A stretch of 64,000 nt of DNA, taken from Microbacterium hydrocarbonoxydans (GTDB lineage: Bacteria > Actinomycetota > Actinomycetes > Actinomycetales > Microbacteriaceae). Positions 3,068-63,048 of the stretch are shown here, one piece after another. Position 1 is the stretch's first letter. Each line of letters opens with the position of its first letter. The translations under genes and the position numbers were made by a program. Below the pieces are notes generated by a model, which saw nothing but the letters and a program-made list of their open reading frames with translations, did no database searches and was not told the origin of the DNA. The DNA lies in assembly GCF_023715885.1 (NCBI RefSeq), contig NZ_JAMBOY010000005.1:62001-126000 (forward strand), written 5' to 3'.

Positions 3068-4570
<1,503 letters not shown>

Positions 4571-4592
4571 TGTGCGATGTCCCTTCGGGCCG

Positions 4593-4616
4593 TCATTGGC
4601 ACAATGCGAGTGTACT
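4593..4616 (-). promoter_or_regulatory. candidate promoter/operator of the mmsA operon
   Basis: On the minus strand TACACT (complement of 4611-4616) resembles a -10 box. The inverted repeat CATTG-GCA-CAATG (4593-4605) sits where transcription would start, 23 bp before the mmsA ATG, so it could be an operator. No regulator gene is adjacent, so the assignment is tentative. Confidence 0.4.
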
Positions 4617-4812
4617 TCGGCATCCGACCAATTACTAGGGCATCCATCTATCGCAGAGTCGGCTCTGGCGGGATTCCACGCTCGTTCACCGGCCGGACAC
4701 CTCGGTCGAGTACAACTGCAGATGCGCGGACACATCGACTCAGACCGGATCGGGTAGTCAGGTCATCCGCGCTCACGGTGAGCATCCGCTCCCGTCGCGG
4801 TGTCATCACCGC

Positions 4813-4848
4813 GAAGACCCCCGCCGAATCGGGTCGGCGGGGGTCTTC
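4813..4848 (+). terminator. rho-independent terminator hairpin with no upstream gene
   Basis: A 13-bp perfect stem (GAAGACCCCCGCC at 4813-4825 and its complement at 4836-4848) with a 10-nt loop, followed by TT. It points rightward, but no plus-strand gene lies between it and the divergent mmsA start. The 4617-4812 stretch holds no convincing ORF or tRNA, so the RNA it ends is unknown. Confidence 0.6.
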
Positions 4849-4872
4849 TTCATCCGGCGCTGGGACCGAGCT

Positions 4873-4895
4873 TTCGAATCGCCTGAATTGCAGTT
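4873..4895 (+). repeat. left flanking repeat, core TTCGAATCGC
   Basis: A 23-bp copy (TTCGAATCGCCTGAATTGCA plus GTT) that matches 5974-5996 at 22 of 23 positions in the same orientation. The two copies are 1101 bp apart and bracket the gene at 4989-5963. Confidence 0.8.
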
Positions 4896-4942
4896 TCCTG
4901 GCCTTGGATTCACTATTTGAGCGATGTGAAAAGACCGTGGCC

Positions 4943-4951
4943 TGTGGATAA
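4943..4951 (-). promoter_or_regulatory. TTATCCACA (DnaA-box-like) upstream of the winged-helix/nuclease-like gene
   Basis: TGTGGATAA at 4943-4951 is the exact complement of TTATCCACA and ends 37 bp before the ATG. The same nonamer lies 58 bp before the paralogue at 61972. Role unknown. Confidence 0.6.
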
Positions 4952-4988
4952 CCCCGCCACCACGAGAACGCCGTGCCAGCGTGCCGTT

Positions 4989-5963
4989 ATGAGTACTGAC
5001 GACGAACCTCTCGGCCCCCATGACGACGCCTTCTCCGTGCACATCGCACGGCTCGAGGGCGCCAGCCGCAGCGAGCTGCGACGTCGCGCACTGGCCGCGC
5101 CCTTCCACGGCGTGCGGATCGCGCGCGACGCACCGAACGCCTTCCACGACATCGAGGACCCGTACGAGCGGCAGCGCCTCTGCCGTGTGGAATGCGCGCG
5201 CATCTACGCGGTCCGCCTGCACTCCGGCCACTTCTTCAGCCATACGACCGCAGCATCGATCTGGGGCGCTCCGCTGCCGCTGGAGTTCGCGGACACCGGC
5301 GGCATCGCGGAGTACGCCGAGCTTCCCCTCCACGTCAGCGCGTCAGGACACGTGCCCTTCCCTCGCGCGGTCGGCGTCACCGGCCACCGGACGCTGTCGA
5401 GCATGACCGCCGTGCAGGAGCATCGGGGGCTCAGGGTGACGTCGCCGTCGGCGACCTGGGCATCGCTCGGCGCACTGTCCGTGCCGAACCTCGTCGCGCT
5501 CGGCGACTACTTCTGCAGAGTCTGGCGGGCGGGTCACGGTCGCAGAGACGTGGGTCGACCACCGCTCGCGGACGTCGAGCAACTGCAACGCGCGATGGAG
5601 GCGGGTCGTCGTCGCGGCGCCGCGCGGCTTCGGGCCGCCCTCGACCTCATTCGCACCGACGCGTGGTCGCCCCGCGAGAGCCTCGTCCGCTGCATCCTCA
5701 TCGACGCCGGACTTCCCGAGCCTCAGCTGAACGTCGACGTCTGCGTGGGCGGACGATTCCTCGCCTGCGTGGATATGGCATACCCCGCGCAGCGCGTCGC
5801 GATCGAGTACCTCGGCATGCTCCATGACGAGAGATGGGCGGCCGATGTCGAGCGCCTCGCCGCCCTGCGAGCCGCGGGGTGGACCGTGATCGAGGTCACC
5901 GCTCCCCTCCTGCGTTCCCCGGAGACTCTCGTGCGCCGGGTCGCCGCCGCACTCCGACGCTGA
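4989..5963 (+). CDS. AbiEi-type winged-helix protein with C-terminal PD-(D/E)XK/DUF559-like domain, copy A
   Basis: 324 residues, clearly homologous to copy B at 61972 along its length (shared FFSHTTA/FFSHQTA, LVALGDYxCRVWR, GRRDVGRPPL, DxWSPRES, AALRAAGWTVIEVT). The N-terminal ~150 residues look like the AbiEi antitoxin/winged-helix region; the last ~100 resemble Vsr/DUF559 nucleases, with an Asp in CVDMAYP and a Glu in VAIEYLG, although the usual E-x-K/D is E-Y-L. Start chosen at ATG 4989; an in-frame ATG at 4917 would place the DnaA-box-like site inside the gene. No toxin partner is adjacent. The gene stands alone, flanked on both sides by TTCGAATCGC repeats. Activity is unproven; it may be a DNA-binding protein only. 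Confidence 0.75.
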   Translation: MSTDDEPLGPHDDAFSVHIARLEGASRSELRRRALAAPFHGVRIARDAPNAFHDIEDPYERQRLCRVECARIYAVRLHSGHFFSHTTAASIWGAPLPLEFADTGGIAEYAELPLHVSASGHVPFPRAVGVTGHRTLSSMTAVQEHRGLRVTSPSATWASLGALSVPNLVALGDYFCRVWRAGHGRRDVGRPPLADVEQLQRAMEAGRRRGAARLRAALDLIRTDAWSPRESLVRCILIDAGLPEPQLNVDVCVGGRFLACVDMAYPAQRVAIEYLGMLHDERWAADVERLAALRAAGWTVIEVTAPLLRSPETLVRRVAAALRR

Positions 5964-5973
5964 GCCTTGACCG

Positions 5974-6032
5974 TTCGAATCGCGTGAATTGCAGTTCTGT
6001 CGGGTCGAAAGCTGCAAGTCAAGCGATTCGAA
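5974..6032. repeat. right flanking inverted repeat, core TTCGAATCGC
   Basis: A forward 23-mer at 5974-5996 and an inverted 23-mer at 6010-6032 match at 20 of 23 positions and can form a hairpin just after the copy A stop codon and just before the 3' end of the convergent thiolase gene (6048). It may double as a bidirectional terminator. Confidence 0.8.
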
Positions 6033-6047
6033 AGCGAAAGGCCGAGG

Positions 6048-7235
6048 CTAGAGACGTTCCACGATCATCGCGTTCGCCATGCCGCCGCCCTCGCACATGG
6101 TCTGCAGCCCGTAACGGCCACCGGTCGCGTCGAGATGATCCACAAGCGTGCCGAGCAGGCGCGTACCCGATGACCCCAGCGCGTGTCCCAGCGCGATCGC
6201 CCCGCCGCGAGGGTTGAGCTTCGCGGCATCCGCCCCGGTCTCGGCGGCCCATGCGAGCGGCACCGACGCGAACGCCTCGTTCACCTCGTATGCGTCGAGG
6301 TCGTCGATCGACAGCCCGGCGCGATCGAGGATCCGCCGCGTCGCGGGAATCGGCCCGGTCAGCATCATCAGCGGGTCGTCGCCCACCACGGCGAAGGCGT
6401 GGAACCGCGCCCGCGCCGTGAGTCCCAGCTGGTCGGCGCGCTCCGCGCTCATGAGCAGCGCCGCCGAGGCTCCGTCGGTGAGCGGCGAGGAGTTACCCGG
6501 CGTGATGCGCCAGTCGAGTTCAGGAAAGCGCTCGGCGAGGGCATCGGTGCGGAACGCCGGCGGAAGGCCGGCGAGAGCGGATGCCGTCGTCCCCGCTCGC
6601 ACGGTCTCGTCGCCGCGCGCCTCGGGCGCCTCGTCGACGGAGATCACGGTGCGGTCGAAGAACCCATCCTCCCAGGCGGCGGCCGCCCGGCGGTGCGACT
6701 CGGCCGCGTACGCGTCCAGTTCCTCACGGCGGAGCCCCCACCGTGCCGCGATGAGCTCGGCCGAGACGCCCTGATTGACGAGCCCGTCGGGATACCGGGC
6801 GCGCAGGCGCTGCGACATCGGGCTCCCGGCGACCGACGCCGACGATCCGAGCGGCACCCGGCTCATCGACTCCACGCCGCCGACGATCACCGCGTCGTAA
6901 GCTCCGGCCATGATGCCCTGCGCCGCGGCATGGACGGCCTGCTGACTCGACCCGCACTGCCGGTCGATCGTCGCCGCAGGGACCGTCTCGTCGAATCCGG
7001 CGGCGAGCACGGCCTGGCGCGCGATGTTCGACGACTGCTCTCCCACCTGGCTCACGCAGCCGAGCAGCACGTCGTCGATCTGACGCGACTCGAGGCCGCT
7101 GCGGTCGAGGATCGCGGCGAGTGCTCCGGCGGCGAGGTCGACGGGGTGCACGCCCGACAGCATCCCGCCGGGCTTGCCGCGGCCGACGGGCGTGCGGACG
7201 ACATCGATCAGGACGGCTTCGCTGCGCGTGCTCAT
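6048..7235 (-). CDS. acetyl-CoA C-acyltransferase (thiolase II family)
   Basis: Degradative or biosynthetic thiolase acting on 3-ketoacyl-CoA. 395 residues, normal length. The nucleophilic cysteine is C94 (DRQCGSSQQA), the second-domain histidine H351 is in GAIALGHALG, and the C-terminal cysteine C381 is in MCEGGGMAN; NEAF is present near residue 315. ATG start at 7235. It is a single-gene unit, convergent with the copy A gene, with no other beta-oxidation genes adjacent. Chain-length specificity cannot be read from the sequence. Confidence 0.93.
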   Translation of the reverse strand: MSTRSEAVLIDVVRTPVGRGKPGGMLSGVHPVDLAAGALAAILDRSGLESRQIDDVLLGCVSQVGEQSSNIARQAVLAAGFDETVPAATIDRQCGSSQQAVHAAAQGIMAGAYDAVIVGGVESMSRVPLGSSASVAGSPMSQRLRARYPDGLVNQGVSAELIAARWGLRREELDAYAAESHRRAAAAWEDGFFDRTVISVDEAPEARGDETVRAGTTASALAGLPPAFRTDALAERFPELDWRITPGNSSPLTDGASAALLMSAERADQLGLTARARFHAFAVVGDDPLMMLTGPIPATRRILDRAGLSIDDLDAYEVNEAFASVPLAWAAETGADAAKLNPRGGAIALGHALGSSGTRLLGTLVDHLDATGGRYGLQTMCEGGGMANAMIVERL

Positions 7236-14958: not shown

Positions 14959-15017
14959 TTCGAATCGCGCAAATGGTCACTTTTCGACCGGTGGCGTTAC
15001 CAGTTGCGCTCTTCGAA
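14959..15017. repeat. inverted repeat of the TTCGAATCGC family between convergent genes
   Basis: TTCGAATCGCGCAAATGG at 14959-14976 pairs with CCAGTTGCGCTCTTCGAA at 15000-15017 (15 of 18 positions). It shares the core with the repeats around 4873-6032 but has no adjacent nuclease-like gene. It may also serve as a terminator for both converging genes. Confidence 0.65.
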
Positions 15018-22330: not shown

Positions 22331-22431
22331 CGCGTTTCGTCTCGGTGCTTCGCTCCTCGCTCAACCACCGGGATCCCACCGGTCGTTGAGCGAGCGGAGC
22401 GAGACGAAACGCGGCACCCTCGCTCAACGAC
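22331..22431. repeat. extragenic repeat cluster, GGTCGTTGAGCG family
   Basis: An inverted copy (22333-22369), a forward copy (22381-22412) and a half copy (22420-22431). The long inverted pair lies between the convergent abfA and MFS genes and could terminate both. The half copy encodes the last Gly-Arg and the TGA stop of the MFS gene. Confidence 0.85.
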
Positions 22432-23905
22432 CTCCGTCGTGGGTCACCGGCTTGTCTCCTGATTCGACGAGGGACAGCGGGTCGGCGATGTCCTCCAGGG
22501 ACTTGCCCGCCGCGCTCACGCCGAAGAGACCGCAGACGACCCCGCCGAAGATCATGATCCCCGAGCCGAGCACGTACCCCCAGAACAGCGGACCGCGGTC
22601 TCCGGTCTCGGCGCTCTGACCGATCAGCGAGCCGTAGAGCACCGGAGCGATCGCGCCGACGAGCTGACCGATCGAGAAGACGTAAGAGATGACCTGGCTG
22701 CGCAGCTCCAGCGGGAAGATCTCACTGACCGTGAGGTATGCCGCCGAGGCGCCGGCGGAGGCGAAGAAGAAGGACGCGCACCAGAACGCCGTGTGGGTGC
22801 CCGCGTTCAGGACTCCCGCGTTGAACAGGAACGCGCTGACGAGCAGGATCGACCCCGCGAGCACGTAGGTGAGGAACAGCATCCGCCGCCGTCCCCACGT
22901 GTCGAAGAAGTGTCCGAGCACGAGTGCGCCGGCGAGGTTGCCGACCGCGAAGATGATGAAGTACTGCGAGGCCGACGCCGGCGGGGTGTCGTAGAAGTTC
23001 TCGAGCACGAGCGCGTAGGTGAAGAAGATCGCGTTGTAGAGGAACGACTGCGTCACCATCATCGTGATCCCGACGAGGGTCCGCCGCGGATACTTCTTGA
23101 AGAGCACCTTCGCGATCACGAGGAACGGCACCTGACCGTACTCCTTCACCGTGATCGCCTTCGACTCGTCGACGGGCGGGATCTCCCTGCCCTCCTCGCG
23201 AATGCGCTGCTCGATGCCGTCGACGTTCCGCTCGGCCTCGTCCTCACGGCCGTGCGTCATCTGCCAGCGCGGGCTCTCGGGGATGTGACGGCGCAGCCAG
23301 ATGATCAGGATGCCGAGCACCGGCCCCAGGAAGAAGCTGAGGCGCCAGCCGAGGTCCTGCGGGAGGATGTCGGTGTTCAGGAAGAACAGGTTCGCGACGG
23401 CACCCAGGGCGGCACCGCCCCAGTAGGTGCCGTTGATCGCGATGTCGACGCGTCCCCGGTACTTCGCGGGGATGATCTCGTCGATCGCCGAGTTGATCGC
23501 GGCGTACTCGCCGCCGATGCCGGCGCCGGCGACGAAGCGCCAGATGTAGAAGAACCAGGGCGCGAATGCGAGACCGGCGACGGCGGAGCCGACGAGATAG
23601 ACAACCAGCGACAGGATGAAGAGCTTCTTGCGGCCGAGACGGTCGGTGAGGCGCCCGAACACGAGCGCGCCGAAGACCTGGCCGAGCAGGTAGCAGGTGC
23701 CGGCCAGACCGACCTCGGCCGGGCCCATGCCGAGGGTCGCCGCGTAGCCGTTCGCGGCGACGATCTGCACCTCGAGGCCGTCGAGGATCCAGGAGAACCC
23801 CAGTCCGACGACGATCATCCAGTGGAAACGCGCCCACGGGAGCCGGTCCATCCGGGCGGGAACGAGGGACCGGACCTTTTTCACCGGCACATCGGATGCG
23901 GACAT
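22424..23905 (-). CDS. MFS transporter, sugar/metabolite:H+ symporter type
   Basis: 493 residues, 12 predicted membrane helices with a long central cytoplasmic loop (~residues 215-265). Family motifs: GRLTDRLGRKK after helix 2, GIGGEYAAINSAIDEII in helix 4, and the RR-type second-half loop GHFFDTWGRRR. ATG at 23905 is preceded by a strong GAAGGAGG site; an upstream GTG/ATG reading begins in the ribosome-binding site. It follows prpC on the same strand after 112 bp, so it might carry an organic acid, but the substrate is not evident. The stop lies in an extragenic repeat. Confidence 0.85.
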   Translation of the reverse strand: MSASDVPVKKVRSLVPARMDRLPWARFHWMIVVGLGFSWILDGLEVQIVAANGYAATLGMGPAEVGLAGTCYLLGQVFGALVFGRLTDRLGRKKLFILSLVVYLVGSAVAGLAFAPWFFYIWRFVAGAGIGGEYAAINSAIDEIIPAKYRGRVDIAINGTYWGGAALGAVANLFFLNTDILPQDLGWRLSFFLGPVLGILIIWLRRHIPESPRWQMTHGREDEAERNVDGIEQRIREEGREIPPVDESKAITVKEYGQVPFLVIAKVLFKKYPRRTLVGITMMVTQSFLYNAIFFTYALVLENFYDTPPASASQYFIIFAVGNLAGALVLGHFFDTWGRRRMLFLTYVLAGSILLVSAFLFNAGVLNAGTHTAFWCASFFFASAGASAAYLTVSEIFPLELRSQVISYVFSIGQLVGAIAPVLYGSLIGQSAETGDRGPLFWGYVLGSGIMIFGGVVCGLFGVSAAGKSLEDIADPLSLVESGDKPVTHDGGR

Positions 23906-36637: not shown

Positions 36638-36722
36638 GCGAACCACCCCTCTCCGCCCGAGCCACCCCTCTGCATGCACGACGCAGAGGGGTGGCTCGCG
36701 CGAAAGGGGGTGGCTCGCGCGA
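36638..36722. repeat. nested inverted repeats, core GCCACCCCTCT
   Basis: Two forward units (36638-36652, 36659-36673) followed by two inverted units (36683-36703, 36705-36722) between the convergent ABM and binding-protein genes. This is the same two-forward, two-inverted layout as at 30020 but with an unrelated core. Confidence 0.75.
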
Positions 36723-61650: not shown

Positions 61651-61680
61651 TCGGTCGGGCAGGCGCGCCGCGCCCCGGCC

Positions 61681-61893
61681 GCGCTTCCGGTCGCACTTCG
61701 AGCCGCGCCCGCCCCAAACCTCGCTTCCGGTCGCACTTCGTGCCGCTCGCGCGCGCGTTCGACGGGCCCAACTGCGACCGGAAGCGCCGGGCACCGACTC
61801 GGTCCGGCACCAACTGCGACCGGAAGCGCCGGGCACCGACTCGGTCCGGCACCAACTGCGACCGGAAGCGCCGGGCACCGACTCCCTGCATCG
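61681..61893. repeat. left flanking repeat cluster, core TTCCGGTCGCA, with 42-bp tandem repeats
   Basis: Two forward units (61681-61700, 61721-61740) followed by inverted units arranged as a 42-bp tandem repeat: 61768-61809, 61810-61851 and a partial third from 61852. Each contains AACTGCGACCGGAAGCG. It fills most of the 321-bp gap before the copy B gene; nothing else is visible there except the DnaA-box-like site. Confidence 0.85.
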
Positions 61894-61971: not shown

Positions 61972-62943
61972 ATGGGACGACCACGACCGCTCCCCGAGGG
62001 CCTCGGGCACAGCTTCTCCGTTCAGGATGCCGCGGCCGCCGGCGTGAACCGTGGGCGGCTTCGGCGTTCCGACCTCGACGTCCCCTTCCGCGGCATCCGC
62101 GTCCCCGCAGGAACCGATGAGGTCGATCCCGACCTCGACCCGTACGAACGTCAGGCGCTGGGCCGCCGCATCCGGGCTCGCCGGTACGCACCGCGGCTGC
62201 GGGATGGACAGTTCTTCAGCCACCAGACCGCGATCGCGCTGCTCGGCGGACCGCAGCCCCTCATCACGCGAGACGGTCGCGTCGTCGACGGACTCTCCTT
62301 GCCGGTGCACGTCGCTACCGCGGGCGCCGGCCCCCTGGTCAGAGCGGTCGGCGTCCGCGCGCACCGCGCCCCCGAGGCCAGCGAGACCTTCACCGGTCGG
62401 GACGGATCCCGCATCGCGACACCCGCCACGGCGTGGGCGCAATCGGGCACTATGAGTCTGCTCGACCTTGTGGCCCTCGGCGACTACCTCTGCCGGGTAT
62501 GGCGCGAAGGCACGGGACGGCGCGATGTCGGACGGCCGCCTCTCACCACCCGGGAGCAGCTGCGCTCAGTGCTCACTGACACGCGTCGCGTCGGCATCCC
62601 CCGTCTTCGTGCAGCGCTGGAGCTGATTCGCGAGGACTCCTGGTCTCCGCGCGAGTCCCAGTTACGCTGCCACCTCGTCTTCGCGGGACTGCCCGAACCG
62701 GCACTGAACCACGACGTCTATGACGAGTTCGGCCGCTTCCTCGGGTGCGTCGACCTGGCGTACCCGGCGAAGCGGGTCGCCATCGAGTATCAGAGCATGC
62801 TCCACCATTCCCACTACGCGGCCGATGTCGAGCGGATCGCCGCCCTGCGCGCAGCGGGCTGGACGGTGATCGAGGTGACGTCCGAACTGCTCGCGCGGCC
62901 CGACGTACTGGTCGACCGCGTGCGGCGCGCTCTCGCCGGATGA
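61972..62943 (+). CDS. AbiEi-type winged-helix protein with C-terminal PD-(D/E)XK/DUF559-like domain, copy B
   Basis: 323 residues, paralogue of copy A at 4989. Shared blocks: FRGIRV/FHGVRI, DPYERQ, FFSHQTA, VALGDYLCRVWR, GRRDVGRPPL, SWSPRES, CVDLAYPAKRVAIEYQSMLH and the C-terminal AALRAAGWTVIEVT. The putative nuclease residues are an Asp (CVDLAYP) and a Glu (IEYQS); the third position is Gln rather than Lys. ATG at 61972 chosen so that the start matches copy A; an ATG at 61906 lies in the DnaA-box-like site. It interrupts the L-fucose genes, which suggests insertion. Confidence 0.75.
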   Translation: MGRPRPLPEGLGHSFSVQDAAAAGVNRGRLRRSDLDVPFRGIRVPAGTDEVDPDLDPYERQALGRRIRARRYAPRLRDGQFFSHQTAIALLGGPQPLITRDGRVVDGLSLPVHVATAGAGPLVRAVGVRAHRAPEASETFTGRDGSRIATPATAWAQSGTMSLLDLVALGDYLCRVWREGTGRRDVGRPPLTTREQLRSVLTDTRRVGIPRLRAALELIREDSWSPRESQLRCHLVFAGLPEPALNHDVYDEFGRFLGCVDLAYPAKRVAIEYQSMLHHSHYAADVERIAALRAAGWTVIEVTSELLARPDVLVDRVRRALAG

Positions 62944-62983: not shown

Positions 62984-63048
62984 GACGCTCCGGTCGCAGT
63001 TGAGGTCGCCGGAACCCGATGTCGGGCGGCACGAAGTGCGACCGGAAC
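62984..63048. repeat. right flanking inverted repeat, core TTCCGGTCGCA
   Basis: GACGCTCCGGTCGCAGTT (62984-63001) and the inverted unit CGAAGTGCGACCGGAAC (63032-63048), 41 bp after the copy B stop. The core is the one found on the left side of the gene and nowhere else noticed. Confidence 0.8.

Follow-up and report, generated by a model that had tools for sequence, protein, structure and literature searches.

Gene A, gene B and their flanking palindromes

The window, by which we mean the whole 64-kb stretch of DNA analysed here, contains two paralogous genes that each lie between repeats (Table 1). Direct copies of the 23-bp sequence TTCGAATCGC(C/G)TGAATTGCAGTT begin at 4873 and 5974 on either side of gene A. 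They are identical at 22 of 23 positions, their starts are 1101 bp apart and an inverted copy occupies 6012–6032 to the right of the gene, all of which confirms the initial annotation. The different core that it had reported on both sides of the paralogue at 61972 was found as well: the half-site TTCCGGTCGCANTT occurs five times upstream of gene B (61685–61867) and twice downstream (62988 and 63034). The repeats of both genes are arms of imperfect palindromes of about 59 bp (arms of about 21 nt, loop of 17 nt), termed core-1 at gene A and core-2 at gene B. Upstream of gene B (61661–61888) the half-sites are arranged in tandem arrays with periods of 40 and 42 bp and not in simple palindromes.

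Table 1. Genes and palindromes in the window.
Feature	Position	Strand	Remarks
Gene A	4989..5963	+	324 aa; AbiEi-like N-terminal part (predicted, ~2–222), Vsr/EDxHD-type nuclease domain (predicted, ~224–324)
Upstream core-1 palindrome of gene A	4873..4931		right arm decayed; ~58 bp 5' of the start codon
Downstream core-1 palindrome of gene A	5974..6032		59 bp; starts ~10 bp past the stop codon
Gene B	61972..62943	+	323 aa; paralogue, 54% identity to A
Two direct core-2 half-sites	61685..61745	+	40 bp apart; 5' of gene B
Core-2 palindrome	61725..61783		59 bp; 5' of gene B
Two further core-2 half-sites	61812..61867	-	42-bp tandem array; 5' of gene B
Core-2 palindrome	62988..63047		60 bp; 3' of gene B
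Solo core-1-like palindrome	14959..15017		distant from any gene copy

The half-site pattern of gene A has three matches in the 64-kb window at up to three mismatches (mean of shuffled sequences 0.01), and that of gene B has seven at up to two mismatches (shuffled mean 1.07). Genome-wide, 13 core-1 half-sites were counted at up to three mismatches (reversed control 0) and 21 core-2 half-sites at up to one mismatch (control 5). When folded as single-stranded DNA, the right palindrome of gene A was equalled by none of 200 shuffled sequences, the left one (4873–4931) by 55 of 200 and the gene B palindrome at 61725–61783 by 21 of 200, which is not clearly better than chance; overall, two of five palindromes showed no clear improvement on shuffles. 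At the site of the decayed upstream palindrome of gene A, genome G216 has an intact 59-mer.

Proteins A and B are the only two family members in their genome at E ≤ 1e-5. The genome also contains two remoter genes of the MTES_1575 type, L335 (C21:351825) and L336 (C20:711122), with flank match scores of 15 and 26.5, respectively; their repeat sequences differ again from cores 1 and 2. Gene A is neighboured by genes for an aldehyde dehydrogenase and a thiolase, gene B by those for a dehydrogenase and an amidohydrolase. No toxin (nucleotidyltransferase) gene adjoins either of these two loci, in line with what had been noted before. Rfam intron models gave no match at E ≤ 1 between 4000 and 7000, and an Rfam scan returned a sub-threshold sodF_sRNA match over a terminator at 4812–4868. 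A promoter scan of 4780–6100 found nothing, which says little for Microbacterium. The sole PADLOC match was a weak ZorE2 hit for P0002 (E 0.037), and PHROGs gave nothing useful.

Two other repeat types occur in the window. The dispersed repeat GGTCGTTGAGCGAGCG forms inverted pairs at 867–955 and 22381–22432, with six matches in the window at up to two mismatches against a shuffled mean of 0.35. A 60-bp palindrome with ACCACCCC arms lies at 36639–36698 and similar ones at G000:C23:54500 and 56730; the short pattern ACCACCCC by itself is no more frequent in the window than expected by chance.

Predicted structure of the protein

An AlphaFold2 model of protein A, calculated from an alignment of 59 homologues, had a pLDDT of 92.5 and a pTM of 0.89. 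In comparisons with VIA-align, residues 224–324 matched the catalytic domain of I-Bth0305I (PDB-entry 3r3p) with a Z-score of 12.1 (2.3 Å, 91 residues), 3hrl with 11.1 and Vsr (1cw0) with 10.1. Residues 2–222 matched AbiEi (6y8q) with a Z-score of 10.2 and an r.m.s.d. of 6.0 Å for 176 residues, and the AbiEi-like part gave a Z-score of 6.2 with 1zel. Foldseek returned no match against the PDB at E ≤ 0.001; a profile search of PDB sequences returned 3hrl (E 0.0023) and 3r3p (E 0.059). The protein is predicted from the model to be an AbiEi-like part joined to a nuclease resembling Vsr and I-Bth0305I, which agrees with the earlier reading as AbiEi-like with a PD-(D/E)XK-like domain.

Residues E230, E273, H279 and D286 are invariant in all 59 members and D262 is conserved in 58 of them. 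These residues fit the E-D-x-H-D pattern and, judging by their conservation and by the name of the motif, would be catalytic. Pfam searches at E ≤ 0.01 found DUF559 in 51 and MTES_1575 in 27 of the 59 members, and AbiEi_4 in only two. P0001 scored 19.3 bits against DUF559, under the cut-off of 20.6. None of P0001, P0002 and the 59 members matched a Y1 transposase in Pfam at the thresholds applied.

Flanking repeats across the family

Scanning genome contigs yielded 40 loci, including some from Microbacterium and other Microbacteriaceae; the Microbacterium set comprised 366 genomes, 325 of which had a match at E ≤ 1e-20. With 80 further stretches added and 24 duplicates removed, 127 distinct proteins were available. 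For 123 of these (four were dropped for short flanks) the 300 bp upstream of the gene were compared with the 300 bp downstream. A common repeat with a score of at least 16 was present in 100 of the 123, and scores below 14 were found in 14. Windows of the same size shifted within the same loci reached a score of 16 in only 3 of 179 cases and flanks of different homologues paired with each other in 62 of 1819, a figure inflated by related homologues with a common core. The association of this gene with flanking repeats, first proposed from gene A and its paralogue, thus extends to homologues.

A palindrome finder with stricter requirements (arms of 18 nt, of which 16 had to pair) detected a palindrome upstream in 67, downstream in 69 and on both sides in 37 of the 123 homologues. 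For 79 of 126 loci, chosen for matching palindromes on both sides, the median distance from the end of the upstream palindrome to the start codon is 68 bp and that from the stop codon to the downstream palindrome 14 bp.

Forty distant loci were hand-picked from the PF18741 listing of the class Actinomycetes, the choice depending on the length of the reading frame and on how far it lay from the ends of the contig. Flank scores of at least 16 were obtained for 32 of the 40, compared with 15 of 780 mismatched pairs. The arrangement of a gene between repeats predates the genus Microbacterium. One distant homologue, L318 (genome G502), has a tandem GCACGGTCAACGGTTTGGGAC-like array upstream and related units in opposite orientation past the gene.

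The core goes with the protein lineage

Fourteen genomes contain two or three paralogues. At a score of 15, the two flanks of the same gene matched in 27 of 30 cases, whereas the upstream flank of one paralogue matched the downstream flank of another in none of 36; a genome-wide dialect is therefore excluded as the cause. The crossed paralogues and the shifted windows also rule out chance or plain terminators as the origin of the matches.

At the 79 loci with palindromes on both sides, the distance between arms tracks the distance between proteins (Mantel r 0.60, p 0.001). Such a correlation could come from linked inheritance by itself, which does not account for why the two flanks of one gene are alike. 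Taken by part, the correlation is 0.55 for the nuclease domain and 0.58 for residues 61–150. Since the nuclease domain correlates with the arms about equally, the residues that read the repeat cannot be located by correlation.

Of the 21 genomes in which the gene is flanked by core 1, 18 contain core-1 palindromes (mean 12.7 per genome), compared with 20 of 74 other genomes with a close protein (mean 1.6); a perfect core-1 palindrome is absent from three of the 21. Core-2 palindromes were found in 16 of 31 core-2-flanked genomes (mean 2.6) compared with 17 of 64 others (mean 0.66, p 0.009). The core co-varies with the protein, as had been suggested. Neither of the two outcomes that the initial annotation had named as refuting its idea was obtained, since homologues have flanking repeats and the cores are linked to the protein. 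The initial description of the core as private holds as far as each core is tied to a protein lineage, but dispersed copies of the cores are also frequent at a distance from the genes.

Dispersed palindromes

We found the core-1 palindrome, TTCGAATCGC-N(37-41)-GCGATTCGAA, in 67 of 366 genomes with up to 34 copies each, and the equivalent core-2 palindrome in 41 of 366 congeneric genomes. The reversed control for both cores was zero among the entries listed. With a range of 0–34 per genome, the copy number is low for a mobile repeat. In the fetched loci, 69 of 71 core-1 pairs span exactly 59 bp. Core-2 pairs span 59 bp in 22 cases, 58 bp in one and 90–141 bp in 20, which we take to be pairs across arrays or genes.

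The inner arm positions 11–21 are complementary in a fraction of 0.74 of the cells, compared with 0.53 after shuffling. When shuffling was confined to copies of the same genome, complementarity was 0.653 against an observed 0.715, a value reached in none of 2000 shuffles; this sample consisted of copies among the matches listed (first per genome, genomes up to G122), with 57-, 58- and 60-mers excluded. At C20:589757 a paired double change is seen, from G-C in G000 to T-A in G216 and G301. Inner arms that are complementary and yet differ between copies suggest that the substrate or copying intermediate is a hairpin or a cruciform. The concerted change of both flanks and of the dispersed copies in turn points to copying or conversion between palindromes. 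Complementarity was similar in genomes with a close protein (0.730, 38 copies) and in those lacking one (0.709, 40 copies; p 0.76), and a decay of the palindromes where the close protein is missing was thus not borne out.

A crude gene caller placed 38 of 48 copies between genes, and many lie 9–20 bp past a stop codon. Across the 366 genomes, 51 have both a close protein and the palindrome, 31 only the protein, 32 only the palindrome and 252 neither (p 1.3e-19). Here a close protein means a best E ≤ 1e-85, which holds for 82 genomes; at most six candidates were scored per genome, and the class with no close protein may miss some. One of the 32 genomes with the palindrome only, G103, contains 22 copies.

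We also searched for the transposase that mobilizes comparable repeats elsewhere. The Y1 transposase PF01797 (E ≤ 0.001) was absent from 12 of 12 genomes, which have up to 34 core-1 palindromes each, and present in 5 of 14 control genomes. RAYT was rejected as the mobilizer on this ground, the search covering the Y1 class.

Our analysis shows a family of proteins of about 320 aa encoded between two copies of a lineage-specific palindrome that is also dispersed, for the most part between genes.

Empty sites and mobility

At the locus of gene A, genomes G188 and G000 have both neighbours in common at 93–94% identity, and in G188 the gene and its palindromes are replaced by 69 bp. G188, a near relative that has no close protein, contains no perfect-core palindrome genome-wide. 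Both dispersed sites examined in it also lack the palindrome that is common to G000, G216 and G301. Over 13–19 kb, identity is highest between G000 and G188 (91.9%; G000 and G301, 90.9%), and loss of the gene and palindromes in G188 would therefore be the simpler history, which for four taxa with no outgroup is not proof.

Of 20 fetched stretches with the left neighbour of gene A, eight contain both neighbours. Six of these (G188, G174, G120, G158, G308 and G147) have a gene-free gap of 26–552 bp, and G053 and G054 have 1.9 kb between the neighbours. The empty orthologous sites envisaged by the initial annotation do exist in these gaps, but no clean insertion was seen. The empty locus of G174 keeps a short palindrome, as judged by eye.

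On contig C23 we compared 12 palindrome copies, some of which represent the same site; several of them aligned on one side only or had no counterpart sequence to hand, and the clear results are as follows. Two sites are common to G000, G216 and G301 and one to G216 and G301. One copy of G301 is missing in G000 and G188, another is missing in G188, and at one site the palindrome is replaced in G000 by another palindrome type. No fresh insertion was caught, the dispersed sites being mostly common to near relatives, and inspection by eye revealed no target-site duplication at the compared sites. Genomes G016 and G017, which are near-identical, showed no insertion difference, as both contain the copy tested.

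Some sites carry other elements. A GGTCGTTGAGCGAGCG-type copy occupies a G000 site where G301 has a 59-bp palindrome. In a comparison with L005, the hairpin GAAGAGCCGC...GCGGCTCTTC stands at locus L271 of G188 between two convergent genes, where relatives have the 59-bp palindrome instead. This spot looks as if it needed a terminator.

The family was found in four plasmid records and one phage record, none covering 80% of the query, and we rejected a plasmid- or phage-borne element.

Comparison with known systems

A REPIN consists of two inverted REPs and a spacer, forms a hairpin and shows compensating changes; REPINs are duplicated by RAYTs, which are single-copy genes with vertical inheritance, and are commoner in RAYT-bearing genomes, as described in PMC3116915 and PMC8049555. 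The loci described here resemble REPIN/RAYT, as portrayed in PMC3116915, PMC8049555, PMC3733652 and PMC8266576, in several respects. A chromosomal gene is flanked by its own palindromic repeats. These are inverted doublets with fixed spacing and compensating changes, dispersed and intergenic, and their copy number is tied to the gene, with little carriage on plasmids. There are also differences. The protein is not a HUH Y1 transposase, and GTAG, the tag of the first REP superfamily, adjoins none of 158 flanking palindromes. Copy numbers are 0–34, unlike those of E. coli, for which PMC8049555 gives 69 or more REPINs per genome. Transposition was not seen, the comparisons revealing presence or absence at orthologous sites. 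In form the loci match REPIN/RAYT, but we have not filed them as REPIN/RAYT because their enzyme does not belong to the HUH transposases.

With AbiE, a type IV toxin–antitoxin system, the protein shares a predicted AbiEi-like fold in its N-terminal two thirds. In Rv2827c, inverted repeats likewise lie 5' of the gene with a 23+13+23 geometry (PMC7319586); promoter binding by the protein studied here is a prediction. Unlike AbiE, genes A and B have no toxin neighbour, a nuclease domain is added, a second palindrome follows the gene on the 3' side and copies are dispersed. An AbiE toxin–antitoxin system was ruled out, no toxin adjoining gene A or gene B.

The predicted nuclease domain has the fold of I-Bth0305I and Vsr with the conserved E-D-x-H-D pattern, and I-Bth0305I is reported to use a long target, of nearly 60 bp (PMC3943268). 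Unlike in that system, the gene is flanked by its presumed target and does not lie inside it, and the DNA-binding part would be AbiEi-like. The absence of Rfam intron matches at E ≤ 1 in 4000–7000 leaves room for a free-standing form; the family is not a demonstrated homing endonuclease. The C-terminal domain matches DUF559 and REase_MTES_1575 in Pfam, but neither of these names is linked to repeats. A description of this gene–repeat pairing was not found in open-access PMC texts.

Proposed partnership and alternative explanations

Based on these results, we propose that gene and repeats form a partnership that works like REPIN/RAYT with an unrelated enzyme, a reading to which we give an even chance. 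It would represent, with the same balanced confidence, a second, independently evolved class of gene–REPIN pairs across the Actinomycetes, in which AbiEi–EDxHD lineages each bind, cut and disperse their own co-evolving palindrome. Binding, cutting and the mobility of the unit are steps that we infer.

The mechanism could be as follows. The AbiEi-like parts of two protein molecules would bind the two arms of one 59-bp palindrome, and the two nuclease domains would be held over its middle. According to PMC7319586, AbiEi binds two inverted repeats of 23 bp with 3 bp between them, and Rv2827c binds two pairs, in each of which the two 23-bp repeats are separated by 13 bp. I-Bth0305I dimerizes on a target nearly 60 bp long (PMC3943268). 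As the 23+13+23 bp of an Rv2827c pair add up to 59 bp, the length of the palindromes here, and the target of the I-Bth0305I dimer is of nearly 60 bp, two molecules per palindrome are the simplest picture. The upstream palindrome, which ends about 60–110 bp before the start codon, may serve as an operator for self-repression. The EDxHD/Vsr-type nuclease would nick or cut the palindromes, be they in duplex, cruciform or hairpin form. Once cut, the sites would be repaired or copied, and this could slowly spread the palindromes and keep the copies of one lineage alike, while the gene itself would mostly be inherited vertically, as RAYTs are.

A simpler explanation, which we consider possible but doubtful, is that the palindromes are only operators. 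They would be autorepressor sites of the AbiEi type, the dispersed copies would form a regulon and the nuclease would act elsewhere or rarely. AbiEi and Rv2827c repress their own promoters via 23-bp inverted repeats, as reported in PMC7319586 and PMC3985639, the 59-bp geometry is that of the Rv2827c pairs described there, and the palindrome finder frequently detects an upstream palindrome (67 of 123). However, it detects a downstream one equally often (69 of 123), shortly past the stop codon, and many dispersed copies lie past stop codons or between convergent genes and not at promoters, as far as crude gene calls tell. Moreover, the inner arms vary within a genome and yet are complementary above the level of shuffles, which a reading of the sequence alone would not require.

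We regard it as improbable that the gene is a selfish element of the homing type, whose protein cuts solo palindromes so that the gene, together with the palindrome on either side, is copied into the break. The gene itself would then be the mobile unit and the solo palindromes its targets or leftovers. In its predicted nuclease fold the protein matches the EDxHD homing endonuclease I-Bth0305I, whose target is nearly 60 bp long (PMC3943268), and the short palindrome at the empty locus of G174 would fit such a history. With comparable loops, the two palindromes are direct in 11 loci and inverted in none, as a product of recombination would be, but a wider comparison gave three loci (L042, L047 and L060) with stronger inverted matches. 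At five of the six empty sites there is no clean solo palindrome, the gene occupies the same locus in several species, it is rare on plasmids and phages and no intron model matched in the interval searched around gene A, all of which argues against homing.

Finally, we consider it very improbable that the palindromes are spread by other machinery or act as terminator hairpins with the gene merely lying between two of them: dispersed copies do lie at gene ends and some sites have a different hairpin in a relative, but each paralogue has lineage-specific cores on both sides, the link to the core holds across genomes, the same arrangement recurs in 32 of 40 distant relatives and the 12 genomes searched have no transposase of the Y1 class.

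If the proposed partnership of an AbiEi–EDxHD protein with its palindrome is true, REPIN/RAYT-like partnerships would have arisen more than once from unrelated enzymes, and general rules for them would become testable. It would also give a role to a very common group of DUF559/AbiEi-like genes of actinobacteria. The family would then provide a large natural series, dozens of protein–target pairs, from which to learn how AbiEi-type proteins read long DNA sites.
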